This document shows, in pieces, positions 26,667-64,000 of a DNA stretch of 64,000 bases. Location of the stretch: positions 1-64,000 of the forward strand of contig JAUXOA010000002.1 of assembly GCA_030682475.1 (NCBI GenBank). Direction: 5' to 3'. Positions within the stretch are counted from its first letter, which is position 1; each line of letters begins with the position of its first letter. The position numbers were made by a program, and so were the translations under genes. Below the pieces are notes generated by a model. That model saw nothing but the letters and a program-made list of their open reading frames with translations. It made no database searches and was not told the origin of the DNA. This stretch comes from Rhodoferax sp. (GTDB taxonomy: Bacteria; Pseudomonadota; Gammaproteobacteria; Burkholderiales; Burkholderiaceae_C).

Positions 26667-28235
26667 TTATTGCGCTGGCCCTGACAAGCCCGCCAGCACC
26701 GCGGTGCTGGCCTGCACGGCACTGCGGCGGTGGTAGAAACCGAGCGCGCGCAGACCCCCCAATTCCTCGCCGCCGCCGGCGCGGCCTGGGCCGCCATGCA
26801 GCGACTGCGGCATGACATTGCCGTGGCCGGTGTGCAGTTGCGCCACGTCGGGCGAGATCACATGGACACGGCCATGGCTGTCGGCCAATTGCAGCGCCGT
26901 CGCCGCTAGTGTTTGCGGATCACTGCCGTAAAGCGAGGCCACCAGCGAGCCCTGGCCGCGACGCACCAGCGCCAGCGCGTGCGCCGTGTCGCGGTACACC
27001 AGCAAGGTGGCGACCGGGCCGAAGACTTCGGTGTCATGGACCCGGTCAGCGCCGTCGCTGCCCTGTGGATGGCGCGTGCCCAGCAGCGTGGGGCCGACGC
27101 AGCAGGCAAGCGCCGGATCGGCGTCAACCAGCGCGTGCGTGGCGCCGTCGTGCAGCGTCTCGGCCTGTTGCTTCAAATGGTCCAGCCCTGCACGCACGCT
27201 GACCAGTTGCGCACGATTGACCAGCGCGCCCATGCGCACCGATTCATTGCGCGGATTGCCCACCGTGGTCTTGGCCAGGCGCGCGGAAATGGCTTGCGCC
27301 GCCGCGCCATAACTGGCCTCGGTCACGAAGATGCGGCGGATTGCGGTGCATTTCTGGCCCGACTTGACCGTCATTTCGCGCACCACCTCTTTCGCCAGCA
27401 GATCAAAGGCTTCGCTGCCGGGCACGGCGTCGGGCAACAGCACGGCAGAGTTGACGCTGTCAGCCTCGATGTTGACGCGCACAAAGCGTTGCGCCACGGC
27501 CGGATGGGAACGGATGAGCGCGGCGGTCTCGGCCGAGCCGGTGAACGACACCACGTCAAAGGGCTGCAGTTCGTCCATCAGGCCAGCGGAGCTGCCGCAA
27601 ACCACTGACAGTGCGCCCGGCGGGAAGATTCCGGCATCGACCACGTCCTTGACCATGCGCTGTGTCAGCCAGGCGGTGGCGGTGGCCGGCTTCACAATCA
27701 CCGGCACACCCGACAGCAAGGCGGGCGCTGCTTTTTCCCACAAGCCCCAGCCCGGGAAGTTGAAGGCATTGATGAAGAGCGCCACACCGCGCGTGGGTAC
27801 CAGCACATGCTGGGACTGGAACAGCGGGTCTTTGCCCAGACGCGCGGCCTCGCCGTCCAGCAAAAAGTGGCGGTCGCCAAGGGACTCGCCGAGTTTGGCG
27901 TAGGTCCCGAGTGTGAAGATTCCACCGTCGATGTCCACCGCCGAGTCATTTTTGACCGTGCCGCTATTGGCGGTGGCAATCTCGTAATAGGTATCGCGGC
28001 TGGCTTGCAACACTTTAACGGCTGCCGCCAGCATGCCGGCGCGCTCGCGATAGGTCAGCGCGCGCAGTGCGGCGCCACCCTGTTCGCGGGCGAAGGCAAA
28101 GCCGGCTTTCAGGTCCAGTCCGGTCGCGTCCACGCGTACCAATTCGTTGCCCAGCACGGGGTCAATCAGCGGCGTGCCGGCACCTCGCCCGGTCTGCCAA
28201 TGGCCGCCGAGGAAGTTGGAAAGCAGTTCAGTCAT
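26667..28235 (-). CDS. boxD: 3,4-dehydroadipyl-CoA semialdehyde dehydrogenase
   Basis: Oxidises 3,4-dehydroadipyl-CoA semialdehyde, the product of the ring-opening lyase BoxC, to the acid with NADP. The 522-residue protein has an aldehyde dehydrogenase fold. The substrate-phase block FINAFNFPGWGLWEKAAPAL and cofactor loop VSFTGSAETA are present, as are the general-base Glu in NIEADSVNSAVL and the catalytic Cys in KSGQKCTAIRR. The C-terminus is that of the longer PaaZ/BoxD type. The ATG at 28235 matches the family start. It lies 25 bp upstream of the ligase gene. Confidence 0.9.
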   Translation of the reverse strand: MTELLSNFLGGHWQTGRGAGTPLIDPVLGNELVRVDATGLDLKAGFAFAREQGGAALRALTYRERAGMLAAAVKVLQASRDTYYEIATANSGTVKNDSAVDIDGGIFTLGTYAKLGESLGDRHFLLDGEAARLGKDPLFQSQHVLVPTRGVALFINAFNFPGWGLWEKAAPALLSGVPVIVKPATATAWLTQRMVKDVVDAGIFPPGALSVVCGSSAGLMDELQPFDVVSFTGSAETAALIRSHPAVAQRFVRVNIEADSVNSAVLLPDAVPGSEAFDLLAKEVVREMTVKSGQKCTAIRRIFVTEASYGAAAQAISARLAKTTVGNPRNESVRMGALVNRAQLVSVRAGLDHLKQQAETLHDGATHALVDADPALACCVGPTLLGTRHPQGSDGADRVHDTEVFGPVATLLVYRDTAHALALVRRGQGSLVASLYGSDPQTLAATALQLADSHGRVHVISPDVAQLHTGHGNVMPQSLHGGPGRAGGGEELGGLRALGFYHRRSAVQASTAVLAGLSGPAQ

Positions 28236-28257
28236 GTAATTCTTTCGTGATGAGTCA

Positions 28258-28341
28258 TCGTGACGCCGCCGGGCCGCCCCAAGCAAGCACAGCCCCCTTG
28301 GGGGGCAGCGCAGCACACCCGGTGGCAAGCGTGGGGCCATA
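28258..28341. repeat. dispersed GC-rich palindromic element
   Basis: This 84-bp stretch between boxD and the DUF4863 gene contains the hairpin CCCCCTTGGGGGG and a CCCCAAGC...GCGTGGGG outer part. I recognise it as a type of intergenic element common in Comamonadaceae genomes (recollection, not searched). It may reduce read-through between the two genes. Confidence 0.6.
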
Positions 28342-33158: not shown

Positions 33159-34439
33159 ATGAGCGAAACCCATGCCATCAAGCAGCATCTGATTGACCCG
33201 GAGATATGCATCCGCTGCAACACCTGCGAATCCATTTGCCCGGTGAAAGCGATCAGCCATGACTCGCGCAACTACGTGGTCGATGTTGACAAATGCAAGT
33301 TCTGCCTGGCCTGCATCGCTCCGTGTCCGACCGGTTCAATTGACAATTGGCGAACCTTGCCGCGCCTCAATGCCTACAGCGTGACGGCCCAATTGGGTTG
33401 GGATGAGCTGCCGTCCGAGCTGACCAACGACACCCGCCCCGTTCGGGCTGAGCTTGTCGAAGCCGTGGTGGATCCCGAAACGGCCCTTCGACTGGCTCAG
33501 GGCGAACGGTTCACGGCGGCCGACGCCATCTTCAATAGCGCCCAATACGGCGCCACGCTGCCACCCTGGTCGGCCGCCCATGCCTACACCCATCTCTACG
33601 GCCCGAAGGCCGCCGGGAAGTCGATCACCGCCACCGTGGCAGGCAATGTACGGGTCACCGAGGTGGGCCGCGATTACGACACGCATCACATCGTGCTCGA
33701 TTTCGGCGGAATGCCGTTCCCGGTGCTCGAAGGCCAGTCCATCGGCATCCTTCCACCCGGCACCGATGCGAACGGCCGCCTGCACCATGCCCGGCAATAC
33801 TCGATTGCCAGCCCGCGCAACGGCGAGCGGCCCGGCTACAACAACCTGTCCCTCACGATCAAGCGCGTGCTCGAAAATCACCAAGGCCTGCCGGTGCGTG
33901 GCGTGGGATCGAACTACATGTGCGATCTGCAGGTGGGCGACAAGGTGCAGGTGATTGGTCCGTTTGGCGCCAGCTTCCTGATGCCAAACCACCCGCATTC
34001 AAACATCGTGATGATCTGCACCGGAACAGGATCGGCACCGATGCGCGCAATGACCGAGTGGCGCCGGCGGCTGCGCGCTTCGGGCCAGTTCGAAGGCGGC
34101 AAATTGATGCTGTTCTTCGGCGCCCGCACCAAGGAAGAGCTGCCCTACTTCGGCCCGCTGCAAAACCTGCCCAAGGATTTCATCGACATCAACTTTGCCT
34201 TCTCACGCACACCGGGGCAACCCAAGCGTTATGTGCAGGACGTGATGCGCGAACGCGCCGCCGACCTCGGCCCCCTGCTGGGCGACCCCAATACCTGCGT
34301 CTACGTCTGCGGACTCAAGAGCATGGAAGAAGGCGTGCTGCTGGCGCTGCGCGACGTGGCACAGCAGCGGGGTCTGTCCTGGGACACCGTTGGCGCGGCA
34401 TTCAAGACCGAAGGCCGCCTGCACCTGGAGACCTACTGA
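33159..34439 (+). CDS. boxA: benzoyl-CoA 2,3-epoxidase, reductase subunit
   Basis: Transfers electrons from NADPH to BoxB. The 426-residue protein has two [4Fe-4S] motifs at the N-terminus ([16 protein letters not shown] at 18-32 and [16 protein letters not shown] at 46-61). The ferredoxin-reductase module follows with [11 protein letters not shown] for flavin and [12 protein letters not shown] for NADPH. Residues 94-117 are odd: they are encoded by a 72-bp palindromic repeat in exact codon phase, in the linker between the ferredoxin and flavin parts. It ends 8 bp from the convergent apbC gene. Confidence 0.95.
33438..33509. repeat. 72-bp palindromic repeat inside boxA
   Basis: The left arm 33438-33464 starts CCCGTTCGGGCTGAGC and pairs with the right arm 33485-33509 (CTTCGACTGGCTCAGG...GAACGG). 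The length is exactly 24 codons, with no stop, encoding [14 protein letters not shown] and following residues. The first 27 bases are identical to the intergenic copy at 61315-61341. Confidence 0.88.
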
Positions 34440-60422: not shown

Positions 60423-60932
60423 ATGGCCATTTTAGCCATCAATCATGCCCCCCGCGTCACAATAGTTGTCGCCTCGATAGAACCAAGAACCCGAGGGCGG
60501 GCATGGACTGCGGCGGCGCGGTTGCAGGCAGTGATCACCACGGCGGCTATGTCCGAGGCCGCAAAGAGCGCCTGGTGCCGCGAGCAAGGCATCTACCCCG
60601 GCGAGTTGGAGAAATGGTGCTCAGGCGCAGCGGCTGCACTGTGCGACCCGCAGGATGCCAGGGCCAGCCCACAGGCCACGCGCAAAGACCGAAAGCGCAT
60701 CAAGGAACTCGAACGTGAGCTGCTGCGCAAGGACCGCGCCCTGGCCGAAACAGCAGCCCTGCTGGTCCTGTCAAAAAAAAGTCACGACGATCTTCAACAG
60801 AAGCGAGGACGCATGATCCTCATCGAAGATCGCCGTAGTCTGGCAGTTGACATAGCCACCGCTCACAGCGCAGGTGCCCGGTTGCGCCTGGCCTGTGAAA
60901 TCGCAGGCATTGACGAACGCACCCGAGTGTAA
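60423..60932 (+). pseudogene. IS3-family transposase orfA/orfB fragment
   Basis: The frame resembles an IS3-type OrfA: helix-turn-helix WTAAARLQAVITTAAMSEAA and CREQGIYPGELEKWC, then the leucine-zipper RIKELERELLRKDRALAETA with AALLVLSKK. It continues into an OrfB start (MILIEDRRSLAVDIATAHSA, then CEIAGIDERT) and stops before the DDE domain. The normally frameshifted orfA and orfB appear as one frame. It is a remnant without terminal repeats that I could identify. Confidence 0.7.
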
Positions 60933-60958
60933 AGGGGTCTGACCTCTTTATTTTTTAT

Positions 60959-61207
60959 TTAAAGCAACTTGACCAATGCAGCAACGATGCCGACCGACCC
61001 CACCATCAGAGCCCCCAGCTTAATCGTCATACGTTGTTCAAGCTGTGTAAGACGAGCGTCCAGGTATTCTTTCGTGGCCAAATCACGTCCGGCAAGGTCG
61101 AACACCTCGGCCAGCGCCTCGGCTTCTGCCTCGGCTTGCGCAGACGGAACCCCTGCCGATTTTAGGCGGTTAGCAAACTTCAGGGTATCGAAAGTAATCG
61201 CGCTCAT
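60959..61207 (-). CDS. DUF1640-like coiled-coil membrane protein
   Basis: An 82-residue protein: ITFDTLKFANRLKSAGVPSA then QAEAEAEALAEVFDLAGRDLATKEYLD, a helical middle and a C-terminal membrane helix (LGALMVGSVGIVAALVKLL). This is the DUF1640/CCDC90-like layout often found near mobile elements in betaproteobacteria. It is shorter than typical members, with part of the coiled coil missing. AAGGAG precedes the ATG at 61207. The function is unknown. Confidence 0.75.
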   Translation of the reverse strand: MSAITFDTLKFANRLKSAGVPSAQAEAEAEALAEVFDLAGRDLATKEYLDARLTQLEQRMTIKLGALMVGSVGIVAALVKLL

Positions 61208-61300
61208 CGTTCGGCTCCTTGCGGATTTTTTGCATTGTACACAAAAATCCGCTCGATAATTTTCCGAAAAACAAAAGGAAAACCCCGCCTTTAGGGAAAC

Positions 61301-61407
61301 TCTGCATAAGTCCTCCCGTTCGGGCTGAGCTTGTCGAAGCCTTCTCTAAGTTATTGATTTATAACGAAAACATTTCGACAAGCTCAATGCGAACGGACTT
61401 ATGCAGA
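61301..61407. repeat. long inverted repeat with the CCCGTTCGGGCTGAGC core
   Basis: Outer arms CTGCATAAGTCC (61302-61313) and GGACTTATGCAG (61395-61406) enclose the same palindromic core as in boxA (left arm 61315-61341, right arm 61373-61396). The loop is about 30 bp and AT-rich. The whole element sits in the gap between the DUF1640 gene and the IS66 remnant. Confidence 0.85.
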
Positions 61408-61411
61408 TGTT

Positions 61412-61511
61412 CCTAAGCGCACGGCCAACCCATATTGACCGTGCGAAAGCGATCAGGTAGAGGTGGGCACCACCCAGCGGTGCGGCAGCAACTCCGCCAG
61501 GCGCGAGTCGG
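61412..61511 (-). mobile_element. IS66-family 3' end remnant
   Basis: The minus strand reads DSRLAELLPHRWVVPTST and stops at 61453, the typical C-terminus of an IS66 transposase. It continues to a TAAGCGCACGGCC-type end around 61412. The rest of the element is missing. It joins directly to the truncated HigB toxin at about 61511-61515. Confidence 0.55.
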
Positions 61512-61514
61512 GCC

Positions 61515-61709
61515 GACTGGGAAACCCCGGCTGACATCAAAGAGGCTTATCGCAGTGCCAGTTTCACTGCAAACAACCACGTTGTTTTTGATATCAAGGG
61601 CAATGATTACCGGCTGGTGGTGTTGGTGAAATATGACCGTGGATTGATTTTTGTCCGGTTCATCGGCACACATCGGCAGTACGACAAGATTGACGTTGAA
61701 ACGATTTGA
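61515..61709 (+). pseudogene. higB: HigB toxin, 5'-truncated by the IS66 remnant
   Basis: The open frame DWETPADIKEAYRSASF, then HVVFDIKGNDYRLVVLVKYD and FVRFIGTHRQYDKIDVETI is the C-terminal two-thirds of a HigB-type mRNA interferase. The N-terminus and any start codon have been replaced by the IS66 end. Its stop is 10 bp before the intact antitoxin start. Confidence 0.75.
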
Positions 61710-61719
61710 AGGAGCAAGC

Positions 61720-62133
61720 ATGGAACTCAAACCCATCCACACCAAGAAAGACTACCAGGCTGCTCTGGCAGAGATTGAACGGCTATGGGATGCGCCAGCC
61801 AAGTCCTCCGCAGACAAGCTCGACATCCTTACTCTGCTGGTGCAGCACTATGAGAGCATTCACTACCCCATTGCCGATCCAGATCCAATCGAGTTCATCA
61901 ACCATGTCATGGAAAGCCGGGGTTTGACCCGTAAGGATATGGAGCCCCACATTGGCGCACGCGGACGCGTGGCAGACATTCTTAACCGTACTCGTCCTTT
62001 GACACTGGAGATGATTCGACGCCTTACAGTCAACTTGAAGCTCCCTGCCGAGGTATTAGTCAAACCCTATCAACTGCGTCGGGATCAGCGACGTGCAGAT
62101 GGCCGTCTTATATTTCGATCAGCCCAAGTTTGA
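61720..62133 (+). CDS. higA: HigA-type antitoxin (XRE family)
   Basis: A 137-residue antitoxin of the larger HigA type: KPIHTKKDYQAALAEIERLW at the N-terminus and a C-terminal helix-turn-helix (SRGLTRKDMEPHIGARGRVA then DILNRTRPLTLEMIRRL). GGAG lies 5 bases before the ATG at 61720. Its partner toxin is broken, so it is an orphan antitoxin, and its native promoter upstream of the toxin is lost. Confidence 0.88.
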   Translation: MELKPIHTKKDYQAALAEIERLWDAPAKSSADKLDILTLLVQHYESIHYPIADPDPIEFINHVMESRGLTRKDMEPHIGARGRVADILNRTRPLTLEMIRRLTVNLKLPAEVLVKPYQLRRDQRRADGRLIFRSAQV

Positions 62134-62158
62134 CGAGCCACGTCAATTTCGATGCGTT

Positions 62159-63025
62159 TCATTTGATTTCCAAATGTGGCGATCCACTTTCCTGCTCATG
62201 CTTTTTAAGTGCCCGGCTGACCGTCATGTAATGCACCCCAAAATGCTGACCAATCTCGGCCATCGTGTACGCGCCTGACAAATAGGCTCGCGCCATCGCC
62301 TCGTCTCTGTCCGGGTGGTGCGACTGATAAGCCATCAGTGGCAAGGCGATGCTTCGCCGGTGGGCTTTTGACATCTCCCGTAAAACCTCTGGTTTTAGCT
62401 CTTGCTGATGACTTTGCACAAAAGCATCATCACCCAGCAGCAACTGATGACGGGCCGCCAGCAGGGGGCTGGGCAAATCCCGTCCGGCCATGACAAATTG
62501 ACAGTAGTTCTGCAGAGCTTGACTGCGCAAGGAGCCAAACTGATTCAGCAGCCAGTTGGCATCCAGCCAGGATGGTACGGCCTGCTGCCCCATCACCATG
62601 GGGTAACTGCTCCAGCGCCACTCGTCCAGAGACGCCACCATCCTGGCACGCAATGGGTTGAGCACCACATAACGGGTCAACTCCAGCAAGTAAGCCTCCT
62701 TTTGCACCAGAATCGCCTTGTAGCGCCCCTGGAAAAGATGCCCCACCAGACCATGCCGGCGGTTAAAGCACTGCGTGTAGTGACCATTGAGTTGCCGCAT
62801 CCCCCTGGACAAATCGCCGTCCACCGTCTCCAGCAGCAGGTGATAGTGATTGCTCATCTGGCAAAACGCATGCACCACCCAGTTAAACCGCGCACAAACC
62901 GTCTCCAGCACAGCCAACCAATCCATCCGGTCATCGTCGCACAGATAAATATCTTCCCGCCGATCCCCCCGCGACGTCACGTGGTACAGAGCACCAGCGA
63001 ATTCAAGTCTGAGAGGTCTGGCCAT
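62159..63025 (-). CDS. REP-associated tyrosine transposase (Y1/HUH)
   Basis: A 288-residue transposase of the IS200-like Y1 superfamily in its REP-associated form. It starts with RPLRLEFAGALYHVTSRGD. The catalytic HUH motif is in FCQMSNHYHLLLET, followed by HYTQCFNRRHGLVGHLFQGRYKAI and RYVVLNPLRARMV. The C-terminal part adds a helix-turn-helix (YTMAEIGQHFGVHYMTVSRA). Relatives mobilise or maintain small palindromic repeats. No IS ends are seen next to it. Confidence 0.9.
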   Translation of the reverse strand: MARPLRLEFAGALYHVTSRGDRREDIYLCDDDRMDWLAVLETVCARFNWVVHAFCQMSNHYHLLLETVDGDLSRGMRQLNGHYTQCFNRRHGLVGHLFQGRYKAILVQKEAYLLELTRYVVLNPLRARMVASLDEWRWSSYPMVMGQQAVPSWLDANWLLNQFGSLRSQALQNYCQFVMAGRDLPSPLLAARHQLLLGDDAFVQSHQQELKPEVLREMSKAHRRSIALPLMAYQSHHPDRDEAMARAYLSGAYTMAEIGQHFGVHYMTVSRALKKHEQESGSPHLEIK

Positions 63026-63093
63026 GCGTAAAGCATAACAGGAATTGTATTAATGTTAGACCTGACCCCTTTTTTGACCCCTTTTTTCTGCTG

Positions 63094-63528
63094 CTACGCC
63101 TTTAGCACTGTCACCATGCTGGGCCTGAGCAACTTGCGGAAGCCCTTGTCGAATGTCACCAGATGCAAGTGATGGCTTTGTGCAGCGGCTGCAATCCAGG
63201 CATCGGGAATCGCATTGCCGGTCAGGCTGTGTCGTGCGCACAAGCGCTCGACCTCTGGCCACTCATTACCCAACGAGAGCAGGATGACACCCGGCGAATC
63301 CAGCACGGCGCGCAAAAAAAGCAAGGCCGTATCGACGGGTGTGGGTTCCAGGAACACTTTCGGATGCGTCACCAAGCGCAAAAAACCCGAAGCCACCATC
63401 GGCAATATCGCCAATGACCGCCCTTCGGCGCTGTTGGCAAGGGCCTCTTCCAGCCAGACCCGTGCCCGTTCATGGTGTGGATGATCCTGACGGGAAGCCG
63501 CCACCAGAACATTCACATCGGGCGTCAT
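63094..63528 (-). CDS. vapC: VapC-type PIN-domain toxin
   Basis: A 144-residue PIN nuclease: the first catalytic Asp is in MTPDVNVLVAASRQDH (Asp4), a further acidic residue is in NAIPDAWIAAAAQSH and another in LVTFDKGFRKL. The TA-type VapC cuts tRNA or rRNA. The start overlaps the antitoxin stop by 4 bp. Confidence 0.87.
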   Translation of the reverse strand: MTPDVNVLVAASRQDHPHHERARVWLEEALANSAEGRSLAILPMVASGFLRLVTHPKVFLEPTPVDTALLFLRAVLDSPGVILLSLGNEWPEVERLCARHSLTGNAIPDAWIAAAAQSHHLHLVTFDKGFRKLLRPSMVTVLKA

Positions 63529-63785
63529 CGGGCAAAATCCGCTTCATCCGCCGCATCGAGCAGAGCACGCTGGCTCAAGGTATCCCGTATCGTCGGCCGC
63601 AGCCCGCCGCGTCCGGCATAGACCGGCAAAACCGGGCGCCCCTTGCCATGCATGGAGACTTGCGAAGCGCGCAGACGCAAGGACAGGCTTTCCTCGATCA
63701 AGCGCGTCAAGCTGGTATGTTCCCTGGCCGCAAACGACTTGGCCTGCATCAGCAGACCATCCTCAATATCCAGTGTCGTTCTCAT
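63525..63785 (-). CDS. vapB: VapB-type antitoxin
   Basis: An 86-residue antitoxin with an N-terminal ribbon-helix-helix: MRTTLDIEDGLLMQAKSFAA then SLTRLIEESLSLRLR. The C-terminal part (GRPVLPVYAGRGGLRPTIRD) would wrap around VapC. The ATG at 63785 matches the family start; open frame upstream is ignored. Confidence 0.85.
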   Translation of the reverse strand: MRTTLDIEDGLLMQAKSFAAREHTSLTRLIEESLSLRLRASQVSMHGKGRPVLPVYAGRGGLRPTIRDTLSQRALLDAADEADFAR

Positions 63786-63885
63786 AGCACGCCCCTCTAA
63801 TGATGCAGATTTCTGCATATTTTACATTGACCCTGAGGAAAGGGGCCTGGCCTCTTATTGGCCCTGTTCTGTGCTGAAAATATTT

Positions 63886-64000
63886 TTAAGCGTGAATCGC
63901 CAACAAGGCGTCAGGATTAGCCTCGACGATTTTGAGCAATGCCCTTGCAGGGCCGGCAGGTCGCACGCGTCTTTGCTCCCAGTTCTGCAGCGTCTTGGGC
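63886..64000 (-). CDS. XRE-family regulator (NadS/HigA-like antitoxin), C-terminal end only
   Basis: The last 37 codons of a gene entering from the right edge read PKTLQNWEQRRVRPAGPARA then LLKIVEANPDALLAIHA. This matches the C-terminus of short HTH antitoxin regulators of the NadS/HigA type that pair with a RelE-like toxin. The upstream part and any toxin are outside the window. Confidence 0.75.
   Translation of the reverse strand, partial: PKTLQNWEQRRVRPAGPARALLKIVEANPDALLAIHA

Follow-up and report, generated by a model that had tools for sequence, protein, structure and literature searches.

Dispersed palindromic repeats that sit in frame inside unrelated housekeeping proteins have been described in Rickettsia, as RPEs, and as related elements in Wolbachia (Ogata, Claverie, and others; PMC2229807, PMC3767692, PMC10969869). 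These reports model the RPE inserts in exposed regions of the proteins, and a guanylate kinase that bears an RPE is reported to be active, with a changed affinity for its substrate (PMC2229807). By their description, the RPEs measure about 100 to 150 bp, belong to Rickettsia, and often occupy one site in several species. A second group consists of the GTAG/CGTC REPs, short tagged stem-loop units that are often arranged as dimers and that can code in frame for 20 to 30 amino acids (Di Nocera et al. 2013, PMC3733652). According to the main text of that paper, the hosts of intragenic copies include uvrA and the genes for DNA polymerase I and DNA ligase in several genomes, GTAG units can provide a stop codon via their TAG, CGTC REPs lack a dedicated transposase, and no single dominant reading frame is reported. 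A third system, the REPINs, is made of two inverted REP units that form a hairpin and are amplified within one genome (Bertels and Rainey 2011, PMC3116915). REPINs are described as extragenic and accompanied by a RAYT, and in P. fluorescens SBW25 just 14 of the 16-mers overlap genes. We set beside these systems a repeat pair captured in a boxA gene.

In the window, the stretch of 64,000 nucleotides analyzed here, the boxA host gene (33159..34439, plus strand; 426 aa) was recognized from its ORF, Pfam matches, and orthologues and encodes a ferredoxin-type 4Fe-4S domain followed by FAD/NAD reductase domains. Fer4 and NAD_binding_1 are above the Pfam cut-off, FAD_binding_6 reaches 21.8 bits against a cut-off of 21.1, and the protein is 75 to 83% identical to 39 orthologues, with both domains intact. 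The repeat, an in-frame REP-like doublet in >< orientation, occupies 72 bp at 33438..33509 (plus strand; codons 94 to 117) within the BoxA linker, a segment of 46 aa (33423..33560, plus strand) that is bounded by ELPSEL and PPWSAAH and is similar in length to the linkers of repeat-less orthologues. Its sense unit (33439..33464, plus strand) starts with the head CCGTTCG (33439-33445) and has a stem of GGCT (33446-33449) with AGCC (33461-33464); its antisense unit (33484..33509, minus strand) has the head at 33503-33509 on the minus strand and a stem of CCCT with AGGG, a type opposite to that of the sense unit. The arms of the doublet (33439-33462 and 33486-33509), 24 nt each and spaced by 23 nt, are 83% complementary, and the DNA hairpin is more stable than shuffled sequences (z = -5.0; 0 of 200 shuffles equaled it).

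The initial annotation had reported a 72-bp inverted repeat at 33438-33509, and the inverted arms, the fold, and the family matches given below all show that this repeat is real. Its first 27 bases are indeed identical to 61315-61341, it does lie where the ferredoxin domain is linked to the flavin domain in an otherwise intact BoxA (an ORF of 426 codons with its Pfam domains present), and the likeness proposed to the protein-embedded palindromes of Rickettsia is justified, a dispersed palindromic repeat sitting in frame as RPEs do. The further statement that the repeat sits exactly between codons is true of 33438-33509 but not of the conserved unit, whose edge, at the CCGTTCG head, is 33439. 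The AlphaFold model of BoxA is poor (mean pLDDT of 55), so that the pLDDT of 25 to 28 over residues 91-150, in the linker, can be taken as no firmer than an indication of disorder. A PDB match was discarded as evidence on the linker, since the displayed alignment spans the reductase half only.

The source genome (3.29 Mb in 112 contigs, 94% complete) contains 43 places that match the boxA repeat at E <= 0.001. The core GAGCYTGTCGAAG has 82 exact occurrences, against 0 for the pattern read backwards, and a position matrix detected 134 units in 61 stretches of the genome (the window and 60 others), with 0 units in the reversed-sequence control, even at a lower threshold. The 134 units fall into 76 clusters, 52 of which are inverted >< pairs. 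Linkers are compositionally loose, and one may ask whether the resemblance to the repeat is mere chance in a GC-rich gene whose linker is rich in A, P, and E. This reading, which we judge vanishingly improbable, is refuted by the family-matrix scores and by a scan of BoxA linkers: the two boxA arms match the family with scores of 42.6 and 37.9, whereas in the scan of 96 linkers all those other than the window's and those of L145, L171, and L168 scored -6.0 or less on the sense strand, the maximum of the reversed-matrix control being 5.4. L171 scored 13.6 and L168 scored 5.3, the latter alone not exceeding the control.

Copy numbers of an exact 24-mer of the repeat vary widely among genomes, with 70 copies in the source genome and 0 to 5 in each of 35 congeners. 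The 24-mer is present in 11 of the 59 other genomes in the set of relatives. Family-wide, 88 genomes out of 349 carry it, belonging to 53 of 141 genera, with up to 177 copies; several genera hold one species that is rich in it and another that is devoid of it. This distribution is consistent with a mobile element that has multiplied in repeated bursts. Our main reading, to which we assign a probability of about 0.8, is that the boxA segment is a copy of a REP-like mobile repeat, composed of two inverted units of about 26 nt, which recently multiplied in this genome and is kept in frame by selection.

The unit of about 26 nt consists of the conserved head CCGTTCG followed by NNCT-GAGCYTGTCGA-AGNN. 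Of 116 distinct units, 91 show full complementarity at NN, the outer stem positions (mean of 35 and maximum of 52 in 1000 shuffles), as do 165 of 186 units from 14 other genomes (shuffle mean of 67, maximum of 84), and the stem types switch between GG..CC, CC..GG, GA..TC, CA..TG, and CG..CG. Each arm thus looks like a small REP-like stem-loop, for which covariation is the evidence, as a lone unit folds no better than shuffles (z of about -0.1 and -0.3). Among the pairs with GG- or CC-type arms, opposite types are found in 24 and equal types in 2 (p = 1e-5). With opposite arm types, the long hairpin has mismatches at these positions, yet each small stem is paired; selection may therefore act on the small stems and not on the long hairpin. 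Full elements within genes measure 45 to 84 bp (22 elements).

Away from genes, the window contains an intergenic doublet of the same family (61314..61398, unstranded) with a 29-nt AT-rich loop, enclosed in a longer palindrome (61295..61413, unstranded) whose outer arms (61295-61313 and 61395-61413, 19 nt) are 89% complementary. Similar longer palindromes, with CTGCATA in the outer arms and a 29-nt AT-rich loop, occur at L061, L073, L079, L091, and L092, and none of these palindromes, that of the window included, was called in frame within a gene. An Rfam search over 60500-64000 returned no family. The neighboring gene (62159..63025, minus strand; 288 aa, identified by Pfam) encodes a RAYT-like Y1 transposase and has a family unit 763 to 820 nt past its 3' end. 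It is flanked by what we take, from their appearance, to be a HigA-like ORF and a VapC/VapB-like pair (61651-62133 and 63094-63818).

This proximity, the REPIN-like pairing of inverted units that bear stems, and the presence of three Y1 genes in the source genome would be expected if the repeat were an ordinary REPIN and a RAYT, probably the Y1 transposase of the window (62159-63025), had moved it. We nevertheless find such an origin unlikely, since the distribution of Y1 genes follows neither the abundance nor the position of the repeat: they are equally common in repeat-rich genomes (27 of 31, with at least 21 copies) and in repeat-poor ones (25 of 31, with at most 7 copies; p = 0.73), and four repeat-rich genomes have no Y1 gene, two of which (G255 and G358) are single contigs. 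The 52 Y1 loci examined yielded 47 Y1 ORFs, two of them merely 28-aa fragments, with five left unplaced, and only one of the 47 located genes, that of the window, had a family unit in its fetched flank. The head of the unit is furthermore CCGTTCG and not GTAG. A RAYT as the mobilizer is therefore unsupported both by its presence across the 62 genomes and by the flanks.

The search for further in-frame copies, which the initial annotation had proposed as a check, was productive: 31 of the 76 clusters are located in frame within a total of 27 ORFs, where gene interiors were defined not with a gene finder but by a codon score of 0.15 or more on each side over at least 25 codons. All 27 host ORFs have Pfam matches at E <= 1e-5. 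Named from Pfam and PDB matches, the hosts include an HrpA-type DEAH helicase, NuoG, PEP carboxylase, UvrA, Tex, LigA (at two sites), RecJ, PolA, PurL, and GcvP, as well as oxo-acid dehydrogenase E2 and E3 components and a protein of LipB type; PDB matches name IleRS, GcvP, PurL, UvrA, Lpd, and GltX. Several of these are genes that are usually essential, and for both LigA and PolA the assembly (94% complete) gives a single match at E <= 1e-50, so that the only copies seen carry inserts.

Comparison with homologues indicates how these copies were acquired. Relative to 28 other rows, among which L214 is counted although it is unaligned at both LigA sites, LigA has 53 aa at site 1 against a median of 24 and 60 aa at site 2 against a median of 34. 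The PolA linker measures 67 aa against 36 (range of 22 to 80 in 28 other rows), and because this site is a variable linker, the size of the insert is weak evidence there. IleRS exceeds its homologue by about 31 residues, GcvP by 25, UvrA by 18, PurL by 14, and Lpd by about 27, the last in an inter-domain linker. Judged from these alignments, most of the host copies compared (LigA, PolA, IleRS, GcvP, PurL, UvrA, and Lpd) are insertions. The single unit in GltX (L089) aligns to the homologue without a gap, which makes it a chance match or a replacement and not an insertion. At the LigA and PolA sites, congeners do not share the repeat. One LigA row (L215, from G008) carries a different, hairpin-forming segment at the repeat site, 28 aa above the median, and one PolA (L243, from G012) has another hairpin-forming segment in the linker that carries the repeat here.

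In BoxA itself, the claim of the initial annotation that the repeat adds 24 residues did not withstand comparison. The linker was measured by pattern in 86 of the 98 BoxA proteins collected, and the 46 aa of the window compare with a median of 44 (window counted) and a range of 23 to 54. Excluding the window, 84 of 85 linkers span 41 to 54 aa, and the remaining one (L024, in genome G019) has 23 aa. In a tree built without the linker, the BoxA of the window forms a group with L102 and L105 (SH-aLRT of 86), both with linkers of 44 aa; this tree is a quick one, with 96 rows, from which L166 and L025 were omitted and in which L013/L104 and L015/L136 are identical and probably come from duplicate genomes. 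With a linker of 46 aa in the window and 44 aa in its nearest relatives, the addition of 24 residues is unsupported. Insertion into a linker shortened beforehand, like that of L024, was also considered, and since L024 does not group with the window, the tree gives it no support. The alternatives are an insertion accompanied by the loss of about 22 residues and a replacement of the segment.

Orthologues from distant genera with an equally long and similar segment had been named in the initial annotation as evidence against a capture. An equally long segment does exist in orthologues, but similar sequence is confined to L145, from Hydrogenophaga (exact unit), and L171 (decayed). The unit core is found in 2 of the 98 BoxA proteins, those of the window and L145; the latter has one exact unit, in the same frame and linker as in the window, and a linker of 42 aa. 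The scores of L171 and L168 cited above were obtained at the site that corresponds to the L145 unit. The L145 and L171 proteins read as the product of an older, separate capture that would now be decaying into ordinary linker.

The nearly unaltered length of the linker (46 versus 44 aa, the latter also in the nearest relatives) could mean that the repeat was not inserted but replaced a linker part of like length in a single step, by gene conversion or template switching between copies. The exact unit of L145 in a linker of ordinary length and the gapless unit of GltX would both agree with such an exchange. The copies in LigA, IleRS, GcvP, UvrA, PurL, and Lpd are insertions, however; the BoxA linker tolerates changes in length (23 to 54 aa), so that a later deletion would have been equally easy; and the apparently decayed unit of L171, the sister of L145, implies that the L145 copy may be old and of uncertain length history. 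We regard one-step replacement as possible but doubtful. Under our main reading, that of a mobile copy kept in frame, the repeat would have landed in a linker of conserved length and free sequence, and about 22 original residues would have been lost before, during, or after its arrival, leaving a linker of 46 aa and, presumably, an active enzyme.

A second, unrelated repeat was noticed in the same protein. It is GC-rich, about 78 nt long, and lies in frame in BoxA of four congeners (L021, L026, L027, and L028), after EWRRR, at one site in two separate clades, the clade members L018, L019, and L020 being without it. It gives 9 to 39 matches in 11 of 13 genus genomes searched, including the source genome. 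The recurrence at the same site hints at target specificity. In the window, a copy at 28267-28310 falls within the 5' end of a listed ORF (26667-28340, minus strand) and probably lies upstream of the true start of that ORF, as we infer it. Another copy (G000:C35:72984-73028, in L062) is inside the PEP carboxylase ORF that also carries a REP-like doublet.

Inside genes, the REP-like family keeps largely to one reading frame. The sense arm has two open frames, read as VR[AP]E[LP]VE[AG] or as PFGLSLSK, and the third meets a TGA, so that a gene in that phase ends inside the repeat. In the source genome, the VR[AP]E[LP]VE[AG] frame is used by 26 of 26 in-gene sense arms. In other genomes, 14 of 107 clusters lie in genes and the VR frame is kept in 14 of 15 sense arms, in a non-random sample of 100 stretches, 88 of them with a match, taken from the first-listed places in 14 of 18 genomes (L182-L211 and L272-L301 were not used). 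The single exception, the second sense arm of one composite copy (L309), is also the only occurrence of the PFGLSLSK phase in a gene interior. Overall, the VR frame accounts for 40 of 41 sense arms (p = 4e-11 against one in two), and the antisense arms of the source genome use all three frames (13, 11, and 3; p = 0.04). In a separate count, well-scoring genes enter the first sense arm in the VR phase in 20 cases and in the TGA phase in 3 (VR in 5 for other genomes), with none in the PFGLSLSK phase. Three genes, at L063, L077, and L088, terminate at the TGA of a sense unit, their stop codon being supplied by the repeat.

We think that selection at the peptide level is a likelier cause of this bias than insertion dependent on phase. 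That PFGLSLSK, although an open frame, has a count of 0 is nonetheless striking, and phase-dependent insertion may be an alternative. A bolder idea, which we put forward tentatively and do not expect to hold, is that the element is a mobile repeat compatible with translation, tuned to one codon phase either through its sequence or through the sites at which it inserts; it would act as a portable VR[AP]E[LP]VE[AG] linker module encoding a soluble peptide, would be spread by an enzyme that is possibly not a RAYT, and would seed linkers that later decay, as in the L145 and L171 BoxA proteins. The nearly fixed frame of the sense arm, the strong boxA hairpin (z = -5.0), and the nucleic-acid enzymes among the hosts (UvrA, PolA, LigA, RecJ, Tex, and the DEAH helicase) might also be taken as signs that the insert is kept for use, for example, as a hairpin in the mRNA by which translation is slowed between the BoxA domains or as a useful linker peptide. 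A role of this kind appears very unlikely to us: the unit core is restricted to the window and L145 among the 98 BoxA proteins, the host genes are spread over unrelated pathways, and copy counts differ sharply among relatives, as expected for mobile DNA.

Placed against the described systems, the family resembles RPEs in having in-frame copies in genes for conserved proteins (27 ORFs, all with Pfam domains), but it differs in the size of its in-gene elements (45 to 84 bp), presumably in sequence, in occurring in Burkholderiales, and in having LigA and PolA sites that congeners do not share. As in REPs and REPINs, the unit is an imperfect palindrome of 20 to 40 nt (26 nt, with a covarying stem) and is paired in inverted orientation (52 of 76 clusters), whereas the near-exclusively extragenic location of those elements is not seen (31 of 76 clusters in genes; elsewhere 14 of 107), nor is their association with a RAYT (1 of 47 flanked by units). 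As with the CGTC REPs, no dedicated transposase is tied to the family, but its conserved head, CCGTTCG, differs from both the GTAG and the CGTC tags. The strings CGTTCG, CGAACG, and CTTCGA are absent from the main text of PMC3733652, and TCGAAG appears there once, in an unrelated palindrome. Since it has no GTAG/CGTC tag and no RAYT link, we do not class this family, which works like a REP doublet, with the GTAG/CGTC REPs or with the RAYT REPINs. The palindromic repeats mentioned for the R. ferrireducens genome in the text of PMC2755013 are CRISPR and unrelated. A literature search at the level of text, to which figures and supplements are closed, found no description of the family, and four core sequences, each 12 or 13 letters long, turned up in 5 papers, none of which, judged from titles and the beginnings of abstracts, concerns bacterial repeats. 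The general phenomenon of protein-embedded palindromes is known, and what appears new is the family with its covarying units, the near-absolute frame rule, and the absent transposase link.

Our working model is that copies entered as short hairpin-forming DNA by means of some enzyme, that insertions in genes would survive if their length keeps the frame and the site is a loop or a linker, and that selection would then retain almost solely the VR[AP]E[LP]VE[AG] frame. The absent RAYT association points to some other mobilizing enzyme. The near-absolute frame makes it testable whether a selection filter alone or a frame-dependent entry into genes is at work. With about 30 in-gene copies, LigA and PolA included, in a Comamonadaceae genome whose nearest BoxA proteins are those of Rhodoferax and which presumably belongs to a free-living bacterium, our results suggest that an abundance of protein-embedded palindromes is not confined to reduced intracellular genomes.
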